Below, one piece after another: positions 27,050 to 40,763 of a stretch of 64,000 nt of DNA. The notes beneath the pieces are model-generated. The model was not told the origin of the DNA, did no database searches, and saw nothing but the letters and a program-made list of their open reading frames with translations. Position numbers and translations under genes: made by a program. Where the stretch lies: NCBI RefSeq assembly GCF_016065055.1, contig NZ_CP065856.1, positions 620,001 to 684,000 of the forward strand. Reading direction: 5' to 3'. This DNA comes from Halosimplex litoreum. GTDB taxonomy: Archaea > Halobacteriota > Halobacteria > Halobacteriales > Haloarculaceae. Numbering within the stretch: position 1 is the stretch's first letter; the number at the start of each line of letters is the position of its first letter.

Positions 27050-28045
27050 CTACCCGGCCACTTCGTCCAGGTCGAGTTCGGGCGTCGTCCAGATGACGAA
27101 CTCGCCGTCGCGGTCGACGACGCCGTTGATGTGGTCCTGGTCGACGGGCGAGTCGTTGACTTCCTCCTCGGTGATGGGCGTCACCTGGTTCACGTCGTCG
27201 ACGACCCAGCCGACGGCGCCCTGGTCGTCGAACGCGTCGGGGTCGAAGACGACGATGAGGTCCTTGCTTCCCGCCTCGGAGATATCGAGCAGGACCTTCG
27301 GGTCGAGGATGGTCGTGATCTGCCCGCGCAGATCGACGACACCCTCGACGCAATCGGGCGTGTTCGGCACGCGCGTGACGGTCTCGCGCTTGACGATCTC
27401 CTCGACGTACTCGATGTCGAGGCAGTACTGCTCGTCACCGAGGGTGAACTCCAGCACGCGAGTCTCCTCGCCGGTCTCCTGCTCCGCAGCCCTGCCGGCC
27501 GCACCGATACCCATCTCGGAACTCCCGGCGCCGTCCGCCGGTTCGCCGTCGCCAGCGGTCGACTCGGTGGAACTCAGTCCCGCCTGGCGAGCCATCTCTT
27601 CGACGTCGACGTCCACGTCCCCCACGTCGGCACCGGGGATGTGGATAGTGCCGTCGCCGTCGTCGGTGTCGGCACCACCGCCACCGCCGACCGCGTCCTC
27701 GTCGACGTCCAGGTCCGCCACTGCCTCCGCTGCCGCCTCGGAGACGGCGTCGTCGACGCTCTCGGCCGTCTCGGTCGGCTCGGCGGACTGGTCGTCCGAG
27801 TCGCCCGCCGCCACGGCTTCGGCGGATCCGTCGTCGGCTGCGGGGCCGCCGTCGTCGTCCGTCCCGGCCGTCTCCGTCGTCTCGACCGAGCCGGCAGACT
27901 CGTCGACGGTCGGCTCATCGACCGAATCGGGGGAGTCGTCGTCCGCGTCGACCCGGTCGTCGTCCTGTACCTCGTCGTCCGGCCGGGATCCCTCGCGCAT
28001 CTCGCGGATGCGCCGCGCCCGGTCCATGCGTTCGTCGTCTGTCAT
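27050..28045 (-). CDS. cheW: CheW-type chemotaxis coupling protein with long acidic N-terminus
   Basis: A 331-residue protein. The C-terminal 135 residues are a CheW domain (RVLEFTLGDEQYCLDIEYVEEIVKR, RVPNTPDCVEGVVDLRG, ITTILDPKVLL, GWVVDDVNQV). CheW links transducers to the kinase CheA. The first 190 residues are Asp/Glu/Ala/Thr-rich and low in complexity, probably disordered; normal CheW proteins are about 150 residues. The start at 28045 overlaps the ParA-like gene stop by ATGA, so the two are co-translated. The pairing suggests that array assembly and positioning are linked. Confidence 0.88.
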   Translation of the reverse strand: MTDDERMDRARRIREMREGSRPDDEVQDDDRVDADDDSPDSVDEPTVDESAGSVETTETAGTDDDGGPAADDGSAEAVAAGDSDDQSAEPTETAESVDDAVSEAAAEAVADLDVDEDAVGGGGGADTDDGDGTIHIPGADVGDVDVDVEEMARQAGLSSTESTAGDGEPADGAGSSEMGIGAAGRAAEQETGEETRVLEFTLGDEQYCLDIEYVEEIVKRETVTRVPNTPDCVEGVVDLRGQITTILDPKVLLDISEAGSKDLIVVFDPDAFDDQGAVGWVVDDVNQVTPITEEEVNDSPVDQDHINGVVDRDGEFVIWTTPELDLDEVAG

Positions 28046-28938
28046 GCTGGTACCTCCGCGTAGTCGAACTGCCGGTCGAGATCCGCCGCGATCGAGAGGA
28101 ACACGTCGGCCATGTCGACCGACGGGTCGTAGGCGAAGATGGACTGTCCAGCCGAGAACGCTCGCTGGAGCGCCACTCGCTTGCGGACCTCCCAGACCGG
28201 GTCGTCGGCGAACACCGCCTCGAACCACTCCAGCATCGTCTCGTCCTCGCCGGTGGTCTCGACGCGGTTCGCCACGACACCGAGCGTCTCGACGGTGATT
28301 CCCGTCTGGGCCTCCAGCGCGCTCATCTGGTCGATGAGTAGCTCGATGGCCCGTTCGGAGGTCGCCTCGGTCAGCGCCGGGACGAGGATGTTCCGGGTCG
28401 CGTAGATGCCGGTGTCGGTGAGCTTGCCGTAGAACGGCGGGGAGTCGACGACGACGTAGTCGTAGTCGTCTTCGACGGCCCCGAGCGCGTCGTCGAGCGT
28501 GTCCAGGGCGTGCCCACCGGCGACGGTGTCGGGGGCGACGTTGACCGCCAGCGCCGACAGCGCCGCGGGATCGACGTCGACCTCGCCCTCGGTCGCGCGG
28601 GCCACGAGATCGGCGATGGTCAGCTCGCGCTCGGCCTGGAGCATGTCGATGTTGCTCGGGACCACGTCCATCTCGGGGTGCTCGATCACCAGGTCGGCCA
28701 TCCGGTCGCGCTGGTCGCCGTCGGTCAGCACGTCGAACAGCGTCGGCGGTGCCGCGTCGTACTCCTCGAGCAGCCCCAGGCCCTCGGTCGCGTTACCCTG
28801 CGGGTCCAGGTCGACGAACAGCACGTCGCGACCGCGCTCGGAGAGCGCCCCCGCGACGTTGATCGCGACCGTCGTCTTGCCGGTCCCGCCCTTCGCGTTG
28901 GTCACGCAGATGCGCGCCGGTCCGGTACGTCTCGCCAC
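28042..28938 (-). CDS. ParA-family ATPase co-transcribed with CheW
   Basis: A 298-residue ParA/MinD-type ATPase. The deviant Walker A KGGTGKTT (about 16-23), DLDPQGNATEGLG (switch I) and DYVVVDSPPFYGKLTD (switch II) are all intact, so it should dimerise on ATP. It starts with GTG at 28938; CCTTTTTGAGG (complement of about 28967-28977) lies 30 bases before it and would give a leaderless mRNA. In bacteria, ParA homologues next to che genes (ParC, PpfA) place chemoreceptor arrays; in haloarchaea MinD4 does a related job. Its pairing with CheW and the nearby ArlD/E protein suggests a similar role. No ParB partner is seen. Confidence 0.88.
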   Translation of the reverse strand: MARRTGPARICVTNAKGGTGKTTVAINVAGALSERGRDVLFVDLDPQGNATEGLGLLEEYDAAPPTLFDVLTDGDQRDRMADLVIEHPEMDVVPSNIDMLQAERELTIADLVARATEGEVDVDPAALSALAVNVAPDTVAGGHALDTLDDALGAVEDDYDYVVVDSPPFYGKLTDTGIYATRNILVPALTEATSERAIELLIDQMSALEAQTGITVETLGVVANRVETTGEDETMLEWFEAVFADDPVWEVRKRVALQRAFSAGQSIFAYDPSVDMADVFLSIAADLDRQFDYAEVPA

Positions 28939-29103
28939 GTTGTTCCCGAGTCGACGCTACCACCTCAAAAAGGTACGCGCCGGGCTATCAAACGTTGAAA
29001 TCGGCGGACGGGAGCCGACCGTACGCGGGTCGGCGACCGACGACGGTTCGCGGTTCGACCGCCCGTGACGGCGTGTGAGCGACCGGAACCTCACCGAGAC
29101 GCC

Positions 29104-29140
29104 GTCAGACGGGCGTCTGACCGTGTGCAAGATTTATCAC
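29104..29140 (+). promoter_or_regulatory. Palindrome and TATA box of the ArlD/E-domain gene
   Basis: The perfect palindrome GTCAGACGGGCGTCTGAC (29104-29121) lies just upstream of a TATA box GATTTATCAC (29131-29140), itself about 30 bases before the ATG, giving a leaderless mRNA. The core CAGACG-GG-CGTCTG recurs at 35994-36007. Confidence 0.65.
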
Positions 29141-29165
29141 GACGGGGCGGAATAACACGGTATCT

Positions 29166-29687
29166 ATGACGATCAACCCCCGGGACTACGACCTGAACGA
29201 GTTGCGCGAGATGGCGCGCAAACGCGACGACCTCGACGACCCGCGGTCGAGCGACGGCCGGTCCGAGGACCCGCGGCCGGACGACCCGAGCGAGGCGGAG
29301 TGGGGCCCCCTCGACGACGTGGGCGAGGCGAGCATGTCCGCCGGTGACTCGTTCCGTGCGGGGCTCTACCGGGAACTTCTGCCACTGGTCGGCGGTTCCG
29401 ACGACCTGGAGAAGCCGTATCTGCGCTCCGTCCCCGACACCTACGCCGCGGAGTTCGTCGTCTTCGAGTGGCTGGAGTTCCTGCTGATGCACGCCGGGTA
29501 CAAGGGCGCCGCCGACGCCCTGCAGTACTACGAGTCGATCGACTGGATCACCGAGGACGTGGCCGGCCAGCTCAACGACTACCTGCTCGGGATCGACGAG
29601 ACCGGCTCGAACGAGGGCAACGACCTCGACGTGGACGACCACATGCTCAGCCTCGTCTACGTCGCGAAACTCACCGGGATGCAGTGA
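29166..29687 (+). CDS. Stand-alone archaellum ArlD/E-domain protein
   Basis: A 173-residue soluble protein. Residues about 80-173 are the FlaD/E (ArlD/E) domain: KPYLRSVPDTYAAEFVVFEW, LEFLLMHAGYKGAADALQYY, SIDWITEDV and DDHMLSLVYVAKLTG. The first 75 residues are acidic and probably disordered. ArlD/E proteins form the cytosolic part that couples CheF and response regulators to the archaellum motor. Here it stands alone beside CheW and ParA rather than in an arl operon, so it may link chemosensing, polarity and the motor. It is divergent from parA, with its own leaderless promoter and a palindromic operator. Confidence 0.88.
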   Translation: MTINPRDYDLNELREMARKRDDLDDPRSSDGRSEDPRPDDPSEAEWGPLDDVGEASMSAGDSFRAGLYRELLPLVGGSDDLEKPYLRSVPDTYAAEFVVFEWLEFLLMHAGYKGAADALQYYESIDWITEDVAGQLNDYLLGIDETGSNEGNDLDVDDHMLSLVYVAKLTGMQ

Positions 29688-29747: not shown

Positions 29748-30530
29748 CTACAGTTCGGCGTCGATGTCGTCGACGACGTGACTGCGCAACAGCTCCAGCA
29801 GCACCGTCGCGATACCGGTGTCCGAGCTCCAGATGGCGGTCTCCTTGCGGACACCGGGCAGTTCCTCGCCGCCGAGAACGCTGAGCAGGATCGTGTGTCC
29901 GTCGACGGCGAGCAGCCGTCCGGCGGCGTCGTCCGTCGGATCGTCGGGGAACGGCGCGAGCGCCACCGCCGAATCGGCGAACGCGTCGGTGAGTGCGGGG
30001 TCGTCGGCGGCCGCGCTACAGACCCACACGTCGACCGACTCGGCCCGCTCGCGCAGGGCCGCCGCGACTTCCTCGTCGAGCAGGTCCGGCCCCCCGGCGT
30101 AGAGGACGCTCTCCTCGGCGTCGGCGACGATCTGACGGACCCGCGAGGAGACGTTGTTCCGGCCGTGAACCGTCCAGACGCCCTCCTGGTGTTCGTCTTT
30201 GTGGTCGGCACCCTCCCGGGCGCGTTCGAGGTACTCGAAGGCGCGGTCCTGCTCGCGTTCGAAGCGCTCGGCGAGCGTCTCGCGGGCCTCCTCCAGCGGG
30301 ACCGCGCGGTACTGGATCGGGTTCGACTGCTGGACCTCGACGAGGCCGCGCTCTTCGAGGTTCTCGGCGGCGCCGTACACCTGCGAGCGGGGCACGTCGG
30401 TCATCCGGTCGACGTCGCGGGCGGTGCCGGTCCCCAGCCGTTCGAGGGCGACGAACACCCCCGCCTCGTACTTCGAGAGCCCGAGGCGCTGGAGGGCCTC
30501 GACCGCCTCGGCCTCGCCGTCGTCAGTCAT
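29748..30530 (-). CDS. TrmB-family regulator coupled to an RND exporter
   Basis: A 260-residue regulator. The N-terminal winged helix (EALQRLGLSKYEAGVFVALERLGTGTARDVDRMTDVPRS...) is the TrmB domain; a helical linker and a C-terminal PLD-like sensor domain (SVLYAGGPDLLDEEVAAALRERAESVDVWV...) follow. The start overlaps the end of the RND gene by eight bases, so it is the second gene of that operon and probably regulates it. A palindrome at the operon promoter (34398-34414) is a candidate binding site. The ligand is unknown; lipid-like or drug-like RND substrates are possible. Confidence 0.85.
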   Translation of the reverse strand: MTDDGEAEAVEALQRLGLSKYEAGVFVALERLGTGTARDVDRMTDVPRSQVYGAAENLEERGLVEVQQSNPIQYRAVPLEEARETLAERFEREQDRAFEYLERAREGADHKDEHQEGVWTVHGRNNVSSRVRQIVADAEESVLYAGGPDLLDEEVAAALRERAESVDVWVCSAAADDPALTDAFADSAVALAPFPDDPTDDAAGRLLAVDGHTILLSVLGGEELPGVRKETAIWSSDTGIATVLLELLRSHVVDDIDAEL

Positions 30531-33500
30531 CGTCCCCCTCCGTCCGCCGCTCGTCCGCGCGGGAGTCGCCCCGCGAGTCGCTCGCGTCCGCGCCGTTCGC
30601 GGCCGAGCCGTCCGTCGGCCCGTCGCTGGCGTGTTCGTCGAGCCACGCGTGCGTGACGCGCTCGAACGCCTCGGGCGAGAGCCGGCCGACCGCGAGGTGG
30701 CGGCCCGCGTCCGCGACGTCGCGGGCGTCGACGGGGCCGTCGGCGAGGATAGCCCCCGCCACGTCCGTCGTGACCGGTGCGGCGTCCGGACCGGCGACGG
30801 GGACGACGTGGTCGGGCAGGAGCAACTCGCCGTCGAACGCCACGGTCTCGCCGTCGACCAGTCCTTCCGGAACCGCGAGCGTGTACTCGAGTTCCGCGGG
30901 CTGGCTCCCCTCGTCGTCGAGTTCCCAGACGGCGTACACCCGCCCGTCGGCGGCGACCCGCTCGATGGGGTCGGGCGAGACGCGATCGATCGTGACCGAC
31001 CCGACCGACGGCGCCTCGCGGAGGACGACCCGGCCCGTGGCCGACTGGAGCGTGACCGTCACGCGCGCCGTCCCGCCGGGATAGACGCGGGTCGGCTCGA
31101 CGGACCGAGTGGCGTACGGTACCGCGTCGCCGTTGGTCCGGGCGCTGGCCGTCGGCGTCGCGGCGGTCGTCGCCGCACCCGACGGTCGGGCCGAATCGAC
31201 GCCTGCAGCGACACCGTCGCCGGTGTCGGTCGGTCCGTCCGTCGCCGTCGGAGACTGGCCGTTGGCGCCGCCGGGGATCGGGTCGGCGGCCGACGCGTCG
31301 CCGTCGGGGCCTTCGTCGGTGTCCCCGGCCTCGAAGGCGCCGGCGGGCCCGAGGTGGCGGCTCCACACCGCCAGCAGGCTCGGGAGGACGAACACGCTCG
31401 CGAGGAACGCGTAGACGATCGTGAGTCCGGTGATGAAGCCGAACTGCTGGAGCGGCGGCAGGATGGCAAAGACGAGGACGCCGAAGCCGCCGACGGTCGT
31501 CGCCGCCGACCCGAGCAGCGCACCGCCGGTCCCCGTCACCGCGGTGTGCATCGCCTCGCTGCCCGACCCCTGTCGGTCCAGTTCGAGGCTGAACCGCTCG
31601 CTGAGGTGGATGCTGTAGGCCACCCCGAGCCCGATGGTCAGGCTCGTGATCATCCCCGTCAACACGTTGAACGGGATATCGAGCAGGTACATCGTCCCGA
31701 GGATCCACGAGACGTTGAAGACGACGGGAAGCAAGGTGACGAGACCGAGCGTCGCCGACCCCTCCGCTACCCGATAGACCACCATCAGGAAGACGAACGA
31801 GACCACGAGCGTGATGATCAGGCTCTCGACGACCGTGGTGAGCAGGTCCGACTGGACGATCTCGTTGACGATCGGCCGGCCCGTGGCGACGACGGTCACG
31901 TCGCCGCCGGAGACGGCCGACTCGACGTCGTCCATCTGGGTGGTGACCGCCGACCCCGAGGCGCCGCCCCGCAGCGACGCGGTGAGCAGCAGGGCCTCGT
32001 AGTCGCCGTCTTCGCGCTGGATATACTGGCGGGCCTGGTCGGGCGCCGTCTCGTAGAGCGCGTCGAAGACGCCCGTCACGTCGCGGTCGGGCAGGCCGTC
32101 GCCGTCGGTGTCGCTCGCTGCGAGCGTCGCGTTGAACGTCTCGTTGGTCGCCGCGACCGACCGCATGACGGTGAGCGGACTCCGAACGTCCGCCTCGCCG
32201 TTCGAGAGCGTGACCGTCACGTCCTTCTCGGCGGCGAGTTCGCCGGTCCTGTTCACCCGTTCGAGCGCGTCCCCGGTCGCCACGTCGCCCTCGAAGAGGA
32301 ACTCCGCCGTGGCGTCCTCCCGGAGGAAGTTGTCGTTGACGTACTCGAAGGTCGCCCGCATCGAGTACTCGCCGGGCTGCATCTCCTCGGGCAGGTTGTC
32401 CATCCAGTCGGGCGGTTCCTCGGCGATGAAGTCCGTCTGCGCGAAGGAGGTGTCGACGCTGGTCGCGCCGTAGGCCCCGCCGGCGCTGATCAGCAGCGTG
32501 AGGACGATGACCGCCCACGGCGCCCGGTCGGCGGCGGTCGCGCCCACTTCGAGCAGGCGCCCGAACGCGCCGCCGCCGGTACCGAACGCCCGCTTGCGGC
32601 GGTCGAAGCCCCGGCTTTCGAGGAACGCGTCGGCCTCGACCTTGATCGCCGGGATCAGCGCGCCGAAGACGACCAGCGCGCCGACGATACCGATAGCGCT
32701 GACGACCCCGAACTCGCGGATCGGACCGACGGGGCTGGTGAGGTTCGAGAGGAAGCCGATGACCGTGGTCGCGGTCACCAGCACCAGCGCCGTCCCGACC
32801 CCGGCCAGCGCAGTCCGCATCGAGCCGGCGACCGCCGCGGGACCCTCGCTGTCTCCGCCCTCACCGTGCGACTCGCGCGCCTCACGGTGGCGCATGAACA
32901 CGTGTATCGCGTAGTCGATCGAGAGCCCGATGAGCAGGACGGGGATGGCGACGAACAGCTGGTTGAACGCCACGCCCATCCAGCCCATGTAGCCGAAGGT
33001 CAGGAGGAGCGTGAGCGCCAACCCGAAGACGCCGAGCAGGATGTCTAGCAGGTCCCGATAGGCGATGGTCAGCACCACGAGGACGAACAGGACCGCGAAC
33101 GGCCCGACGACGGTGAGGCTGTCCTGCATCGACCGGTTGGTCTCGTCGGCGATGATGCCCGCGCCGAAGACCATCGCGTCGCCGCTCAGCCGGTCGTGGG
33201 CGATCGACTGGATCTCCGTCTGGGAGTCCTGGATGCGTGCGCTCGCCGACCCCTGGGCGACCGCCGATTCGGTCGTCTGCGTGACGACGACCATCGTCGC
33301 GTTGGCGCTCGTCGAACCCGGCTCGTAGCTCGTCGGCATCAGCGCGAACGCACCCGCGCCGCTGCCCTCGCTCAGCACCCCTTCGACGCTCGCCTCGACC
33401 GCCGAGGCGTTCATCGACTCGATCCGCTCGATCTGCTCGGAAAGCGGCGGCGTCGAGCCGTTCTCGACGGCGGTTCGGAGCGCGGTCCGGTCGGCCTGTA

Positions 33501-34341
33501 GCGCCGTGGCTCGCTCGCCCAGCGCGCGTGCGTCCGGCGCGAGGACGCCCTCGATCCCGGCGTACACCTCGCCGAACTGCGCCTGGATCTCGCCGGACCG
33601 CTGACGGTAGGTCGACTCGTCGATCTCCCCCTGTCCGTAGGAGGCGTTGAGCGAGGCCAGCTGTGACTGGAGCGTCCGCGCCTGTGCGGTCAGGTTCGCG
33701 AACGTCTCGGTCTGGTTGGCCGACAGTCCCGCCGTGGCGTCGGTCCGGACGGCGGTCAGGTTGCGCTCGATAGCGGCCGACCGCTGCTCGTAGGTCGCGT
33801 CGTCGACCTCGCCGCGCTCGTAGGTGCGGTTGAGCGCGACGTAGTCCTGTTGCAGTCCTCGCGTCCGGTTCAGGGCGTCGCTCAGCCGATCGCCCGTCGC
33901 GTTGAGCCGCTGGCGGTCGGCCTGCAACGCCCGACCGCGCTCGGTGAGGGTCGCCGCCTGTTCCTCCCGGATCGCAGCGGTCGCGACGACGTTGGCGACC
34001 CCGGCGGGCGCCTGCGACGCCGAGAGCGTCCGGTTTATCGAGTCGTCCTCCACGAGCGCCCGCTCGAAGCGCAACTGTTCGAGCAGGGACTCCCTGGTCA
34101 GGACGTTGTCCTCGCGGACGATCACCTGAACGGTCGTCGTGTTCGCGCCCGACCCGAAGTTCGAGTCGACGTACTCGAGCTTCTCGGCCTCGTCGGAACT
34201 CGTCTCGAACTGCGACAGCGACGCCGAGTCCTCGACCTGCGCCGCACCGGCGCCGACCGCGCCGATCACCACGAGCAGGGCCACAATAACCAGCCGTCGG
34301 TGTTCGACGACCGCGTCGGCCACGTCGTCCATCCCGACCAT
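30523..34341 (-). CDS. RND-superfamily (MMPL-type) exporter
   Basis: A 1272-residue membrane protein with the two-fold RND layout. After TM1 (LVIVALLVVIGAVGAGAAQ) comes a large outer domain of about 330 residues with coiled-coil stretches and many Asn-x-Ser/Thr sites, then a bundle of five helices (VGPFAVLFVLVVLTIAYRD through IVGALVVFGALIPAI). The second half repeats this: TM7, an outer domain of about 190 residues, and five helices (SLIITLVVSFVFLMVV to FITGLTIVYAFLASVFVLPSLL). The last 250 residues are a soluble extension with Ser/Thr-rich linkers and a beta-rich domain. RND exporters use the proton gradient to move lipids, drugs or peptides. The start may be 34341 or 34332. It overlaps the TrmB gene. 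Confidence 0.9.
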   Translation of the reverse strand: MVGMDDVADAVVEHRRLVIVALLVVIGAVGAGAAQVEDSASLSQFETSSDEAEKLEYVDSNFGSGANTTTVQVIVREDNVLTRESLLEQLRFERALVEDDSINRTLSASQAPAGVANVVATAAIREEQAATLTERGRALQADRQRLNATGDRLSDALNRTRGLQQDYVALNRTYERGEVDDATYEQRSAAIERNLTAVRTDATAGLSANQTETFANLTAQARTLQSQLASLNASYGQGEIDESTYRQRSGEIQAQFGEVYAGIEGVLAPDARALGERATALQADRTALRTAVENGSTPPLSEQIERIESMNASAVEASVEGVLSEGSGAGAFALMPTSYEPGSTSANATMVVVTQTTESAVAQGSASARIQDSQTEIQSIAHDRLSGDAMVFGAGIIADETNRSMQDSLTVVGPFAVLFVLVVLTIAYRDLLDILLGVFGLALTLLLTFGYMGWMGVAFNQLFVAIPVLLIGLSIDYAIHVFMRHREARESHGEGGDSEGPAAVAGSMRTALAGVGTALVLVTATTVIGFLSNLTSPVGPIREFGVVSAIGIVGALVVFGALIPAIKVEADAFLESRGFDRRKRAFGTGGGAFGRLLEVGATAADRAPWAVIVLTLLISAGGAYGATSVDTSFAQTDFIAEEPPDWMDNLPEEMQPGEYSMRATFEYVNDNFLREDATAEFLFEGDVATGDALERVNRTGELAAEKDVTVTLSNGEADVRSPLTVMRSVAATNETFNATLAASDTDGDGLPDRDVTGVFDALYETAPDQARQYIQREDGDYEALLLTASLRGGASGSAVTTQMDDVESAVSGGDVTVVATGRPIVNEIVQSDLLTTVVESLIITLVVSFVFLMVVYRVAEGSATLGLVTLLPVVFNVSWILGTMYLLDIPFNVLTGMITSLTIGLGVAYSIHLSERFSLELDRQGSGSEAMHTAVTGTGGALLGSAATTVGGFGVLVFAILPPLQQFGFITGLTIVYAFLASVFVLPSLLAVWSRHLGPAGAFEAGDTDEGPDGDASAADPIPGGANGQSPTATDGPTDTGDGVAAGVDSARPSGAATTAATPTASARTNGDAVPYATRSVEPTRVYPGGTARVTVTLQSATGRVVLREAPSVGSVTIDRVSPDPIERVAADGRVYAVWELDDEGSQPAELEYTLAVPEGLVDGETVAFDGELLLPDHVVPVAGPDAAPVTTDVAGAILADGPVDARDVADAGRHLAVGRLSPEAFERVTHAWLDEHASDGPTDGSAANGADASDSRGDSRADERRTEGDDD

Positions 34342-34631: not shown

Positions 34632-35666
34632 ATGAGCGACGACGAGCCGGTGCCCATCGGCGTGAAGCTCGGCAGCACTCGCACGGTGATCGCCTACCCC
34701 GACGACGACGGCGAGATCGAGACGATCCGGACGTTGACCTGTCTCGCCACGTACGAGGACGCTCTGACGGGCGAAGAGCGCGTCCTCTACGGCGAGGAGG
34801 CGGCCACCGAGTACCCAGACGAGGTCCAGTTCATGCTTCGGTCGGGCCTGCCGGAGGACGAGGACCGGGCGGAACTGACGAAGACCTTCTTCGAGGAGGT
34901 CATCGACGCCAACGGCGTGCCCGAAAACTCCGGCGTCGTCTACGCCATCCCGACCATCGACAACCCCGAGGGCCTGGCGAATCTCGAAGGCGTGATCGAG
35001 GACTCCTCGATCGGCTCGGCTCTGGTCGAAAGTTACCCCGAGTCGCTGTGTGGCGCGATCCCCGCTCGCGGCGACGACCTCGAAGCGATCGAGGAGATCT
35101 TCGTCGCCGTCAACATGGGGTCGACGAACCTCGAAGCCTCCGGCTATCGCCGCGGCGAGCAACTGGCGCCGTTCACGACCGGCGCCGTCACCGGCAACGA
35201 GGTCGACCGGACGATCGCCAACTACGTCGAGGAAGAGACCCAGGGCCGGGTCAACATCGACACCCAGACCGCCCGGGAGTACAAGGAGGAACACGCCGAC
35301 TTCGAGGAGTTCGAGCCCTTCACCGACATCATCCAGCAGCCCGGCGGCGGCTCTCACGAGTTCACCATCGAGCGGTCGGTCATGGACGCCTGCAACGAGT
35401 ACCTCGACGACGCCGTCGAGGAGTTCTGTAACACCTTCCTGCCGGAACTGGCCAACGACTACATGAAGGTCTACCAGCTGGCGCTGGACAACCGCATCGT
35501 CCTGACCGGCGGCATGGCTTGCATCCCCGGCATCGTCGAGGAGTTCGAGAAGCGGGTCGGCGAGGAGCTCGACCGCGAGGTCGAGGCCGTCGCCGCCGAC
35601 CACCCGGACATCTCGCCCTCGCTGGGCGCCCAGCGCATCGCCGGGCGACTCGTCGACAACGTCTGA
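34632..35666 (+). CDS. Actin-fold cytoskeletal protein (volactin/salactin-like)
   Basis: A 344-residue protein of the actin/MreB/Hsp70 ATPase fold. Phosphate-1 is IGVKLGSTRTVIA (9-21), phosphate-2 is VAVNMGSTNLEASG (158-171) and the adenosine motif is RIVLTGGMACIPGI (288-301). Haloarchaea have filament-forming actins (salactin in Halobacterium, volactin in Haloferax) of this size, and this is likely a member. The Asp of phosphate-1 (DLGT in MreB) is Lys12 here and the Asp of phosphate-2 (VDIGGG) is Asn161, so Mg-ATP handling may differ. A TATA box (GCTTTATCC, 34598-34606) gives a leaderless mRNA. Confidence 0.78.
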   Translation: MSDDEPVPIGVKLGSTRTVIAYPDDDGEIETIRTLTCLATYEDALTGEERVLYGEEAATEYPDEVQFMLRSGLPEDEDRAELTKTFFEEVIDANGVPENSGVVYAIPTIDNPEGLANLEGVIEDSSIGSALVESYPESLCGAIPARGDDLEAIEEIFVAVNMGSTNLEASGYRRGEQLAPFTTGAVTGNEVDRTIANYVEEETQGRVNIDTQTAREYKEEHADFEEFEPFTDIIQQPGGGSHEFTIERSVMDACNEYLDDAVEEFCNTFLPELANDYMKVYQLALDNRIVLTGGMACIPGIVEEFEKRVGEELDREVEAVAADHPDISPSLGAQRIAGRLVDNV

Positions 35667-36157: not shown

Positions 36158-37519
36158 ATGGCCCCAATTATCAGTGAAGATAACATCGAGGGCGTCGACG
36201 AGGCGACCCTCGGGGGGACGGGGCGAGGGGGGATCCTGTCGGACGGCTACCTGCGCGAGGCGCCGTTAGCGTCGTACCTGGACGAGGGGGAACGGCCCGT
36301 GATGGTGCGATCGAACGGGAAGAAGGGGGTTCTCCGCAGCGAGGTCGGCGTCGACGAGACCGAGCGGATCGCGCCGGGCGAGGGGTACCGGGCGTTCGCG
36401 CTGGCGACGGACGCGCGGCTGCGCTTCGTCGTCGGTGCTACCGACGACGGTGACCGGGCGGTCGACGTGTCGCTGGCGGACGTGGAGGTCGTCGAGCACA
36501 GCGACGGCCTCCTCGCCGGCGAGTTCGTCGTCACGACGGCGGCGGACGTGGAGTGGTACTTCCCGAGCCGGTCGGGACTGGAACCGATGGTCGAGTACCT
36601 CGACGCGGCGTCGCTGTCGTGGATCGCGATCGAGGAGCGGCTTGACGACGCGCGGGCCGCTATCGCGGAGGCCCATCGGCTGACCCGGGCGCGGTGGTAC
36701 GACGACGCGCTGTCGGCCGTGCGGGACGCCATGGCCGAGACCGACGCCGCGCGCCGGAGCGAGCGTGAACTCTGCGCCGGCGGGGTCTCCGTAGCGACCG
36801 AGCGGATCGAACGCGCGGAAGCACGGATCGACGAAGTGCAGCGCTCCGTGCTGGAGGGGCGAGCGGCCCGCGCGATCGACCGCGCCGAAACGCGGTGGCG
36901 CGAGGGCGAGTACGCGAACGCCCACGACGCCTACGGGCGAGCACACGACGACTACGAGGAAGCACTGACGACGGTCTCCGTGAGCGGGTCGACCGACGGG
37001 GGGGTCGCCGAGCGACTCCGGAGGAAACTCGATAGAGTGGAACGCAACGTCGCGGCGCTCGAACGGGCGCCGGTGGACTCGGCCGAAGAGGCCCGCGAGC
37101 GGGCCCGGGAGACCGACGACCTCCGCGAGCGGGGCGACCGCCTCGACTTCGCGCTGGACCGCTACCGGACCGCCCTCGAACTCGACTGGGGTCGGTCGAC
37201 CCGCCGGTTCGAGGGGGATCGGGCGGCGATCCGCGACGCGGTCGACGCGGTCGCGCGGGACCTCGTCGAGACGCGCCGCCGATACGCCACCTGGCGCGTC
37301 CGCACGGGCGACGATCACCGCGAGGAGGGCCGGACAGCGCGGGCGGAGTCCTGTTACCGCGACGCCTACGACGCCCTCGGCGAAACCGTCGCGCCGGCCC
37401 GAGAGCTGGTCCCCGACGCCCTCGACGCGCTGACCGCACACCGCGACGCCGTCGCGGACCGGCTGCGTCGGCTCGACACGACCGACGACCAGACGCCGAT
37501 CCCCAGCGGATCACACTGA
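36158..37519 (+). CDS. PH-like domain plus helical repeat protein
   Basis: A 453-residue acidic soluble protein. Residues about 35-150 (YLDEGERPVMVRSNGKKGVL... TDARLRFVVGATDDGDRAVDVSLADVEVVEHSDGLLAGEFVVTTAADVEWYFPSR) match the bacterial PH (bPH_2/YokE-like) pattern in which a signal is read by a seven-strand barrel. Residues 150-440 are long amphipathic helices with repeated ALS/RWYxDALSAV, RWREGEYANAHDAYGRA and AESCYRDAYDALG segments, like tetratricopeptide-style repeats or a coiled coil. No signal peptide or TM. Similar haloarchaeal proteins exist but none is characterised to my knowledge; a scaffold role is inference. Confidence 0.75.
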   Translation: MAPIISEDNIEGVDEATLGGTGRGGILSDGYLREAPLASYLDEGERPVMVRSNGKKGVLRSEVGVDETERIAPGEGYRAFALATDARLRFVVGATDDGDRAVDVSLADVEVVEHSDGLLAGEFVVTTAADVEWYFPSRSGLEPMVEYLDAASLSWIAIEERLDDARAAIAEAHRLTRARWYDDALSAVRDAMAETDAARRSERELCAGGVSVATERIERAEARIDEVQRSVLEGRAARAIDRAETRWREGEYANAHDAYGRAHDDYEEALTTVSVSGSTDGGVAERLRRKLDRVERNVAALERAPVDSAEEARERARETDDLRERGDRLDFALDRYRTALELDWGRSTRRFEGDRAAIRDAVDAVARDLVETRRRYATWRVRTGDDHREEGRTARAESCYRDAYDALGETVAPARELVPDALDALTAHRDAVADRLRRLDTTDDQTPIPSGSH

Positions 37520-39123: not shown

Positions 39124-40590
39124 CTACTCGGTCTCGTAGCGCTCGAACAGCGCCGAGAGCTGCTCGGCGCGCATCGTGAGCATCTTGGCGTTGACGTACA
39201 TCTCCGAGAGCGCGAGGTTCTGTTCCTCGGCGATGGCGGCGACCTGTTCGGCCTCCTCGACGTTCTCTTTGCTGGTCTCGGCGGCCTCGTCGGCGATGGC
39301 GGCGACCTCCTCCGAAGAGGCGGCCTGGTCGTCGGTGGCGTTGGATATCTCGGTGACGCCCGAAGCGGTCTGCTGGACGTGTTCGAGGATCGATTCGAGG
39401 GCGTCCAGCCCCTCGCCGACCGTGCTCTTGCCCTCGTCGATGGTCGACTGCATGTCGGTGATCTCGTCGACGGTCTCGTCGGTCTGGTCCTGAATCTCCC
39501 CGATGAGGCCCTCGATCTCGTTGGTGGCTTCCTTGGTCTCCTCGGCGAGGCTCTTGACCTCGTCGGCGACGACGCCGAAGCCGTTGTTGTTCGCCCCCGC
39601 CGAGGCGTGGGCCGCTTCGATCGAGGCGTTCAGCGCGAGGATATTGGTCTGCTCGGCGATGTCGTCGATGAGGTCGACGATCTGGCCCACCTCGTTCATC
39701 CGCTCGTCGAGTTCGGTGACCGTCTCGACCACGTCCTCGATCTGGTCTTGCGCCTCGTCCATAGTGTCCCGCGCCGAGCGACCGGCCTCGATCCCTTCGA
39801 CCGTCGATCGCTCGGTCTGGTCGGCCATCTCCTTGACCTCGTCGGAGGAGGCGGCGATCTCCTCGATGGTCGCGGACATGTCGGACATCTCGTCGGAGAT
39901 CCCGCTGATCTGCTGGTGTTGCTCGTAGAACACGTCGGCGATCTCCTGGACGCGCTGGGCGACCGTCTCGCTGGAGTCGGTCACCGCCTGGGTCGCCGTG
40001 GTCACCTGCTCGGAGGAGCCGACGACCTCGTCGCTGAAGCCGGCAGCGGCGTCGAAGGTCTGCTCGAAGGCCCCGGCCATCTCGTTGAACTCCGCCGCGA
40101 GTTCCGCGAGCGCCTCCGAGTCGTCGTCGGCGTCGAGGCGCTGAGTCAGGTCGCCGTCACCGAAGGCGTCCAGCGCCGTCCCGACGGTCCGGACGCTGCC
40201 CTCGTAGTCGGCGAGTGCGGCGTCGTCGGCGGCCTGGACGCCACCGTCCGGCGCCGCCACGACCGGCGCGGCGGACCGGGAGTCCGGTCCGGCCCGAAGG
40301 TCCGCGAGGTCGGATCTCGCGTCGTCCAACCGCGAACGGAGGTCGTCACGCTCGCGTTCGGTCTCCGCCAGCGCGGTCCGCAGCTCCTGGCGTTCGCCCA
40401 CCCGGTCGTCGAGCGTCTCACCGATGTCGCGATAGGCGTACACGAGTCCCGCTGCCGCCGCGAGAAATCCCAGTCCGCCGAGCACCGGCCACAGGCCCGG
40501 CACGGCCAGGAGAACCACCACCTGATAGCACGCGTGGGCGAACTGTCCGCCCAGCGTGAACCCGATCCGTCGCTTGAGGGTCGGTCGCAT
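39124..40590 (-). CDS. Methyl-accepting chemotaxis-type transducer with short membrane anchor
   Basis: A 488-residue transducer. Two hydrophobic segments lie close together at the N-terminus (FAHACYQVVVLLAVPGLWPVL and GGLGFLAAAAGLVYAY), so there is almost no outer sensor domain. A coiled coil and a HAMP-like region (GDGDLTQRLDADDDSEALAELAAEFNEMAG) lead to the signalling domain, whose hairpin tip reads NILALNASIEAAHASA...GFGVVADEVKSLAEET. This tip binds CheA/CheW, so the protein can work with the CheW coded 12 kb away. It probably senses something internal or membrane-borne. The ATG at 40590 is preferred; TATA (ACTATATGAG, about 40611-40620) lies 25-30 bases upstream. Confidence 0.9.
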   Translation of the reverse strand: MRPTLKRRIGFTLGGQFAHACYQVVVLLAVPGLWPVLGGLGFLAAAAGLVYAYRDIGETLDDRVGERQELRTALAETERERDDLRSRLDDARSDLADLRAGPDSRSAAPVVAAPDGGVQAADDAALADYEGSVRTVGTALDAFGDGDLTQRLDADDDSEALAELAAEFNEMAGAFEQTFDAAAGFSDEVVGSSEQVTTATQAVTDSSETVAQRVQEIADVFYEQHQQISGISDEMSDMSATIEEIAASSDEVKEMADQTERSTVEGIEAGRSARDTMDEAQDQIEDVVETVTELDERMNEVGQIVDLIDDIAEQTNILALNASIEAAHASAGANNNGFGVVADEVKSLAEETKEATNEIEGLIGEIQDQTDETVDEITDMQSTIDEGKSTVGEGLDALESILEHVQQTASGVTEISNATDDQAASSEEVAAIADEAAETSKENVEEAEQVAAIAEEQNLALSEMYVNAKMLTMRAEQLSALFERYETE

Positions 40591-40705
40591 ATCCCTACGG
40601 TATATCGAACACTCATATAGTCCCTTCTCCCGCGATACAATATTTGAGAACGAGGTCGCGCGCGGGACGACCCGTCGACCGGTCGTCCCGCCGCCACCCG
40701 ACATG

Positions 40706-40732
40706 CTTAAGTTGATGTACGGATTCGTACAT
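40706..40732 (+). promoter_or_regulatory. trp promoter with ATGTACG palindrome
   Basis: TATA-like CTTAAG (40706-40711) is followed by the perfect inverted repeat ATGTACGGATTCGTACAT (40715-40732), which ends near the expected start of transcription. The mRNA leader would be about 30 bases. The half-sites TGTAC/GTACA resemble the TGTACA box bound by the archaeal tryptophan repressor TrpY; the resemblance is an observation, the regulator here is unknown. Confidence 0.65.
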
Positions 40733-40763
40733 CGTAGAACGAAACAGTCCATCGGTGACACAC

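Follow-up and report, generated by a model that had tools for sequence, protein, structure and literature searches.

How archaea place their archaella and chemosensory arrays is an open question beyond the MinD proteins. In Haloferax, MinD4 and MinD2 take part in polar positioning and affect arrays and ArlD foci (PMC11588486). At a locus of Halosimplex litoreum, a gene for a ParA ATPase lies between the genes for a CheW and for an ArlD/E-domain protein, and the question is whether these genes belong to a parallel system that links sensing, polarity and motor, as a first-pass annotation had proposed. We analysed the locus within its window, which covers 64 kb of a 4.16-Mb genome assembled as one contig. 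The CheW and ParA genes and their parts are as follows.

27050..28045, minus strand: cheW2, a 331-aa CheW-domain adaptor with its ATG start at 28045
27089..27457, minus strand: CheW domain of CheW2 (residues 197-319; PF01584, 80.6 bits)
27467..27982, minus strand: variable acidic linker of CheW2 (about residues 22-193)
27983..28045, minus strand: codons of the basic N-terminal helix of CheW2 (residues 1-21, MTDDERMDRARRIREMREGSR)
28042..28938, minus strand: parA, a ParA-type P-loop ATPase of 298 aa (AAA_31, 116.8 bits; also CbiA)
28501..28614, minus strand: insertion of about 37 residues in ParA, lacking in plasmid ParAs

CheW2 is the second CheW of this genome and is encoded apart from the main che cluster. 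The main CheW1, a CheA match, CheY/CheC/CheD and the ArlCE-ArlF-ArlG genes lie at 3.19-3.21 Mb and cheW2-parA at 0.65 Mb, which puts the module about 1.6 Mb from the main che/arl cluster round the circle (2.5 Mb in contig coordinates). The C-terminal domain of CheW2 matched PDB chains of CheW and retains the conserved CheW core. At the N-terminus, the 24 orthologues compared follow the pattern R-M-D-R-A-x-R-I-R-x-M-R-E-G-x-R, with the R, M, R, A, R, I, R and G positions invariant, and structure prediction gave a helix at residues 3-17 (pLDDT 82-84). The linker varies from 129 to 281 aa among orthologues, contains 19-40% D+E and 1-5% K+R, and is predicted to be disordered, here over about residues 23-186 (pLDDT 34-50). 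ParA carries the Walker A' motif KGGTGKTT, and its nearest solved structures are those of Soj/ParA. The insertion was evident from plasmid-ParA alignments that break at residues 109/147 and from a gap against the Soj structures. Of 42 orthologous loci, nearly all have the stop codon of parA and the start codon of cheW2 overlapping in the bases ATGA (spacing -4); the exceptions are two with a spacing of +10 and one with an unresolved start. This overlap and the disordered arm bear out the annotation of a ParA co-translated with a long-armed CheW. cheW2 is directly next to parA wherever both genes could be read, including genomes where the pair has left arlD-salactin.

Full-length ParA orthologues (66-94% identity) were found in 57 of the 106 genomes of Haloarculaceae, with a partial copy in a 58th, and within the class sample they were confined to this family. 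Matches beyond it were plasmid-type ParAs, with alignments that were split or weaker. A three-gene order across all Halobacteria was rejected, since the ParA orthologues stop at the Haloarculaceae border; the order is kept within that family, and arlD-salactin is the wider-kept pair across the class. Many motile Haloarchaea have no ParA, which is therefore accessory. With the archaeal MinD model TIGR01969, ParA scored about 43 bits, below the cut-off of 202. Judged by its sequence, ParA is not a homologue of MinD4, in line with the annotated distinction between the two systems; it shares the ParA/MinD superfamily with Haloferax MinD4/MinD2 and differs from them in having a CheW as its operon partner.

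The arrangement of this pair resembles the Vibrio ParC/ParP system, in which ParP consists of an N-terminal ParC-binding domain, a long proline-rich linker and a CheW-like AIF domain that promotes array formation (PMC5706961). In both cases, the gene of a ParA-family ATPase stands beside that of an adaptor with an N-terminal segment, a long disordered linker and a C-terminal CheW-like domain. In contrast to ParP, the linker of CheW2 is acidic rather than proline-rich and its N-terminal segment is a short basic helix, and unlike the Vibrio genes, cheW2-parA is archaeal, lies outside a che operon and adjoins arlD and salactin. The likeness is one of layout, with homology not shown; a further feature of ParC/ParP-type systems is a CheA with a ParP-binding LID domain. 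A short conserved basic N-terminal peptide is the way in which ParB-type partners activate ParA. In Rhodobacter, the ParA-like ATPase of the PpfA/TlpT system partitions a cytoplasmic chemosensory cluster, with a receptor as cargo adaptor. A ParA-like ATPase acting on chemosensory cargo would be common to both, the adaptor being a CheW here and a receptor there.

We propose that cheW2-parA acts in the manner of Vibrio ParC/ParP or Rhodobacter PpfA/TlpT, which makes it a candidate ParC/ParP-like pair for array positioning in archaea. ParA would run an ATP cycle on the nucleoid or the pole, and the basic N-terminal helix of CheW2 would bind ParA and trigger ATP hydrolysis. The long acidic linker would allow the CheW domain to dock into chemosensory arrays, the putative cargo, which would thereby be placed and inherited. 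CheW2-ParA could instead tune signalling, with CheW2 as an alternative coupling protein whose array occupancy is controlled by ParA, thereby setting array stability or gain. The conserved CheW core of CheW2 and the promotion of array formation by the CheW-like domain of ParP (PMC5706961) are consistent with such a role, but a partner from the ParA family normally serves a spatial purpose, an invariant N-terminal helix with a long linker suits tethering, and we consider tuning unlikely.

The gene that diverges from the proposed positioning pair, and the palindrome before it, are as follows.

29104..29121, no strand: candidate palindromic operator GTCAGACGGGCGTCTGAC, a perfect 18-bp palindrome upstream of arlD
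29166..29687, plus strand: arlD, 173 aa, with an N-terminal NPRDYDLNELR helix and a helical ArlD/E domain

The first-pass annotation had described a stand-alone ArlD/E-domain protein with its own palindrome, and this description held. The ArlD/E domain (PF04659, 102 bits, residues 82-171) is single and C-terminal. There are only two PF04659 genes in the genome, this one and the ArlCE gene of the arl cluster, which lies directly behind cheD; the arl cluster itself has no arlD. Two PF04659 genes are likewise present in Haloarcula, another Halosimplex and Halobaculum, and the arl cluster of Halobacterium holds both ArlD and ArlCE. Halobacterium ArlD starts with MTLNPREYDPEELR and ends with DHVLSLVYIARLSSMQ, and the window protein starts with MTINPRDYDLNELR and ends with DHMLSLVYVAKLTGMQ; the N-terminal motif NPR-YD--ELR and the C-terminus are common to both. 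In a tree of 64 domains, the salactin-adjacent proteins grouped with Halobacterium ArlD and away from ArlCE, with a weak deepest split (48/83). Since the gene at 29166 is one of only two PF04659 genes, the arl cluster is without arlD and the termini are like those of Halobacterium ArlD, sequence comparison suggests that it is very probably arlD itself. It agrees with ArlD (FlaD) of the archaellum in domain, N-terminal motif, C-terminus and, subject to the weak deepest split, tree position, and differs in that the gene lies outside the arl cluster in Haloarculaceae. The structure model of ArlD is helical, and neither sequence nor structure search returned a solved relative. Its N-terminal helix (29166-29230), which reads ELRKMARxRG across the family, bears a loose resemblance to the basic CheW2 helix.

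Further along the window lie an actin-fold gene and a transducer, correctly placed by the annotation within 13 kb.

29748..34341, minus strand: Halosimplex-specific insertion between arlD and salactin, a TrmB-family regulator and an MMPL transporter
34632..35666, plus strand: salactin, an actin-like filament protein (NF053533, 595 bits, cut-off 400; PF25229, 606 bits)
39124-40761: transducer (MCPsignal), by domain match

The window salactin is 94-97% identical to salactin of named Halosimplex species, and no Volactin match to the gene was found at E<=0.1. The insertion before it was present in four other Halosimplex loci, and none of the nine loci compared from other genera showed it; in relatives, salactin follows arlD immediately. 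An uninterrupted cheW-parA / arlD-salactin order was seen in five of the seven orthologous regions first compared. Across the class, sampled evenly, arlD lay within 900 bp upstream of salactin and co-oriented with it in 55 of 73 salactin loci. Named salactin copies agreed, with arlD upstream in 64 of 82, from Haloarculaceae, Haloferacaceae, Natronomonadaceae and Natrialbaceae; the two samples overlap in genomes and are not additive. Salactin, which the annotation had left as a bystander, is a core member of the locus. The transducer was rejected as a conserved member: of 13 loci tested with 7-kb flanks, only those of Halosimplex had it. Directly behind salactin, a 453-aa protein without a Pfam family (36158-37519) has relatives (about 34%) in the corresponding position of Haloarcula, Halorhabdus and Halorientalis loci, one of them with a match to a bacterial PH domain.

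The arlD-salactin pair is kept in at least three distinct gene contexts. Haloferax shows the order archaellins...cheY-cheC-cheD-arlD-salactin, which places the pair inside the archaellum/chemotaxis cluster. Halovenus carboxidivorans has the order cheD-arlCE-arlF-arlG-salactin-arlCE-arlH-salactin-arlCE-arlH, in which ArlF, ArlG, the first ArlH and both salactins exceeded their NCBIfam cut-offs. In some genera, ParA-CheW2 and arlD-salactin are apart within one genome (e.g. G058). Shared ancestry accounts for part of the arlD-salactin synteny. As side observations, Halovenus-type archaellum operons (L158:3666-15008, L150) carry two salactin genes and additional copies of arlCE, with a second arlH in L158. 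Among loci L107-L110, L153 and L154, Haloferax has a second, long-branched ArlD-like gene a few kb past salactin, and several species have a strongly diverged salactin.

Salactin and the ArlD/E domain also co-occur without exception. Among 391 class genomes, salactin was present in 186 and PF04659 in 305; all 186 salactin genomes had PF04659, and none of the 86 genomes without PF04659 had salactin. The association was strong (Fisher p 2e-29, ignoring kinship) and persisted when counted by genus (1.5e-4), and 119 genomes had ArlD/E without salactin. Some joint absences fall within genera that otherwise have both, e.g. G294 and G014, both 99% complete; several other joint-absence genomes are incomplete bins. 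An actin gene that travels with an archaellum motor gene across Haloarchaea, and never without an ArlD/E gene in the genomes sampled, is new. The linkage and the co-occurrence together make a connection between actin and archaellum directly testable in genetically tractable species.

Halobacterium is the exception, with arlD and salactin apart. Its salactin filaments emerge from the poles, deletion of salactin produced no difference in motility and disturbed the distribution of DNA when phosphate was low, and poor salactin synteny has been remarked for Halobacterium and its closest relatives (PMC10746226). The salactin of Halobacterium salinarum is of the same family, but its gene stands alone there, whereas here and in most genera it lies behind arlD. 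The deletion without a motility effect is the strongest counter-evidence to a motility role, softened because arlD and salactin are separated in that organism. In our model, arlD-salactin would supply the cytosolic motor protein ArlD and, with it, a filament growing out from the poles as in Halobacterium; acting on ArlD or the polar cap, this filament would most likely assist in placing, holding or partitioning the motor or the cap.

Collectively, these results suggest that the positions of sensors, actin filaments and swimming motor in the cell are set from a single gene neighbourhood. With somewhat better than even confidence, we read the locus as a motility/polarity module composed of a ParC/ParP-like array-positioning pair, cheW2-parA, and an archaellum-linked pair, arlD-salactin. 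The parallel system proposed initially is retained in the cheW2-parA operon, its ParP-like layout, the identity of arlD and the arlD-salactin linkage, and is narrowed in that the gene order is limited to one family and the pairs are separate in some genera. A stronger version is possible but rather doubtful: dynamically unstable salactin, ArlD, ParA and the ParP-like CheW might cooperate physically, with filaments and a ParA gradient jointly placing and partitioning motors and arrays, and salactin might serve primarily motility inheritance rather than chromosome segregation. In the literature searched, with subscription papers mostly outside it, we found no report of a parA-cheW2-arlD-salactin module.

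The palindrome bears on how the neighbourhood may be regulated. Relative to arlD it lies at about -62, as it does in several other genera, and the pattern GTCAGACGNNCGTCTGAC gave 21 genomic sites with <=2 mismatches in the window genome versus one for the reversed control pattern. Sites on the contig (G000:C1) include 649104 (window 29104), 655992 (window 35992), 3207733, 2358211 and 3381194, and they precede arlD, arlCE, ftsZ, a bactofilin-like gene, RNase HII and endonuclease IV, the last two named by eye and without family search. A motility-only regulon is unsupported, as sites also precede the ftsZ, bactofilin-like, RNase HII and endonuclease IV genes. Since it lies before arlCE, ftsZ and the bactofilin-like gene, the palindrome is a general candidate operator connecting arlD with genes of cell division and the cytoskeleton. 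CdrS was considered as its regulator because it binds upstream of ftsZ1 (PMC8406309). With the operator at about 20 places, including the ftsZ and bactofilin promoters, co-location may serve joint regulation only, and the neighbourhood might reflect synteny by descent and promoter control in common, with no physical cooperation among the gene products. We think this improbable, given that arlD-salactin persists across its different surroundings, that its co-occurrence has no exception and that cheW2-parA is translationally coupled.

A module for motility and polarity has also to be weighed against the published idea for salactin, by which ParA and salactin would form a DNA-segregation system and CheW2 and ArlD would be unrelated or borrowed adaptors. 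ParA is closest to chromosome/plasmid Soj/ParA, and deletion of salactin disturbs DNA distribution at low ploidy (PMC10746226). However, no ParB-like gene or domain was found among the scanned window neighbours of parA, CheW2 is the invariable partner of ParA, and salactin is confined to ArlD/E genomes and lies within the arl/che clusters of Haloferax and Halovenus. DNA segregation therefore has, in our estimate, a low probability.

Beyond Halobacteria, salactin was found in Archaeoglobaceae-like and Methanocellaceae-like genomes. There, no link of salactin to arl genes was seen except one arlI-like (secretion ATPase) match. Thirteen Archaeoglobaceae-like salactin genes (L265-L275, L277, L278) are followed by a short coiled-coil gene, read in three of the 13, and then by a ParA/MinD ATPase gene, and the three are apparently one operon. 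Because these loci also carry a ParA/MinD neighbour, salactin appears to have been tied to the ParA/MinD superfamily at least twice, in different forms.
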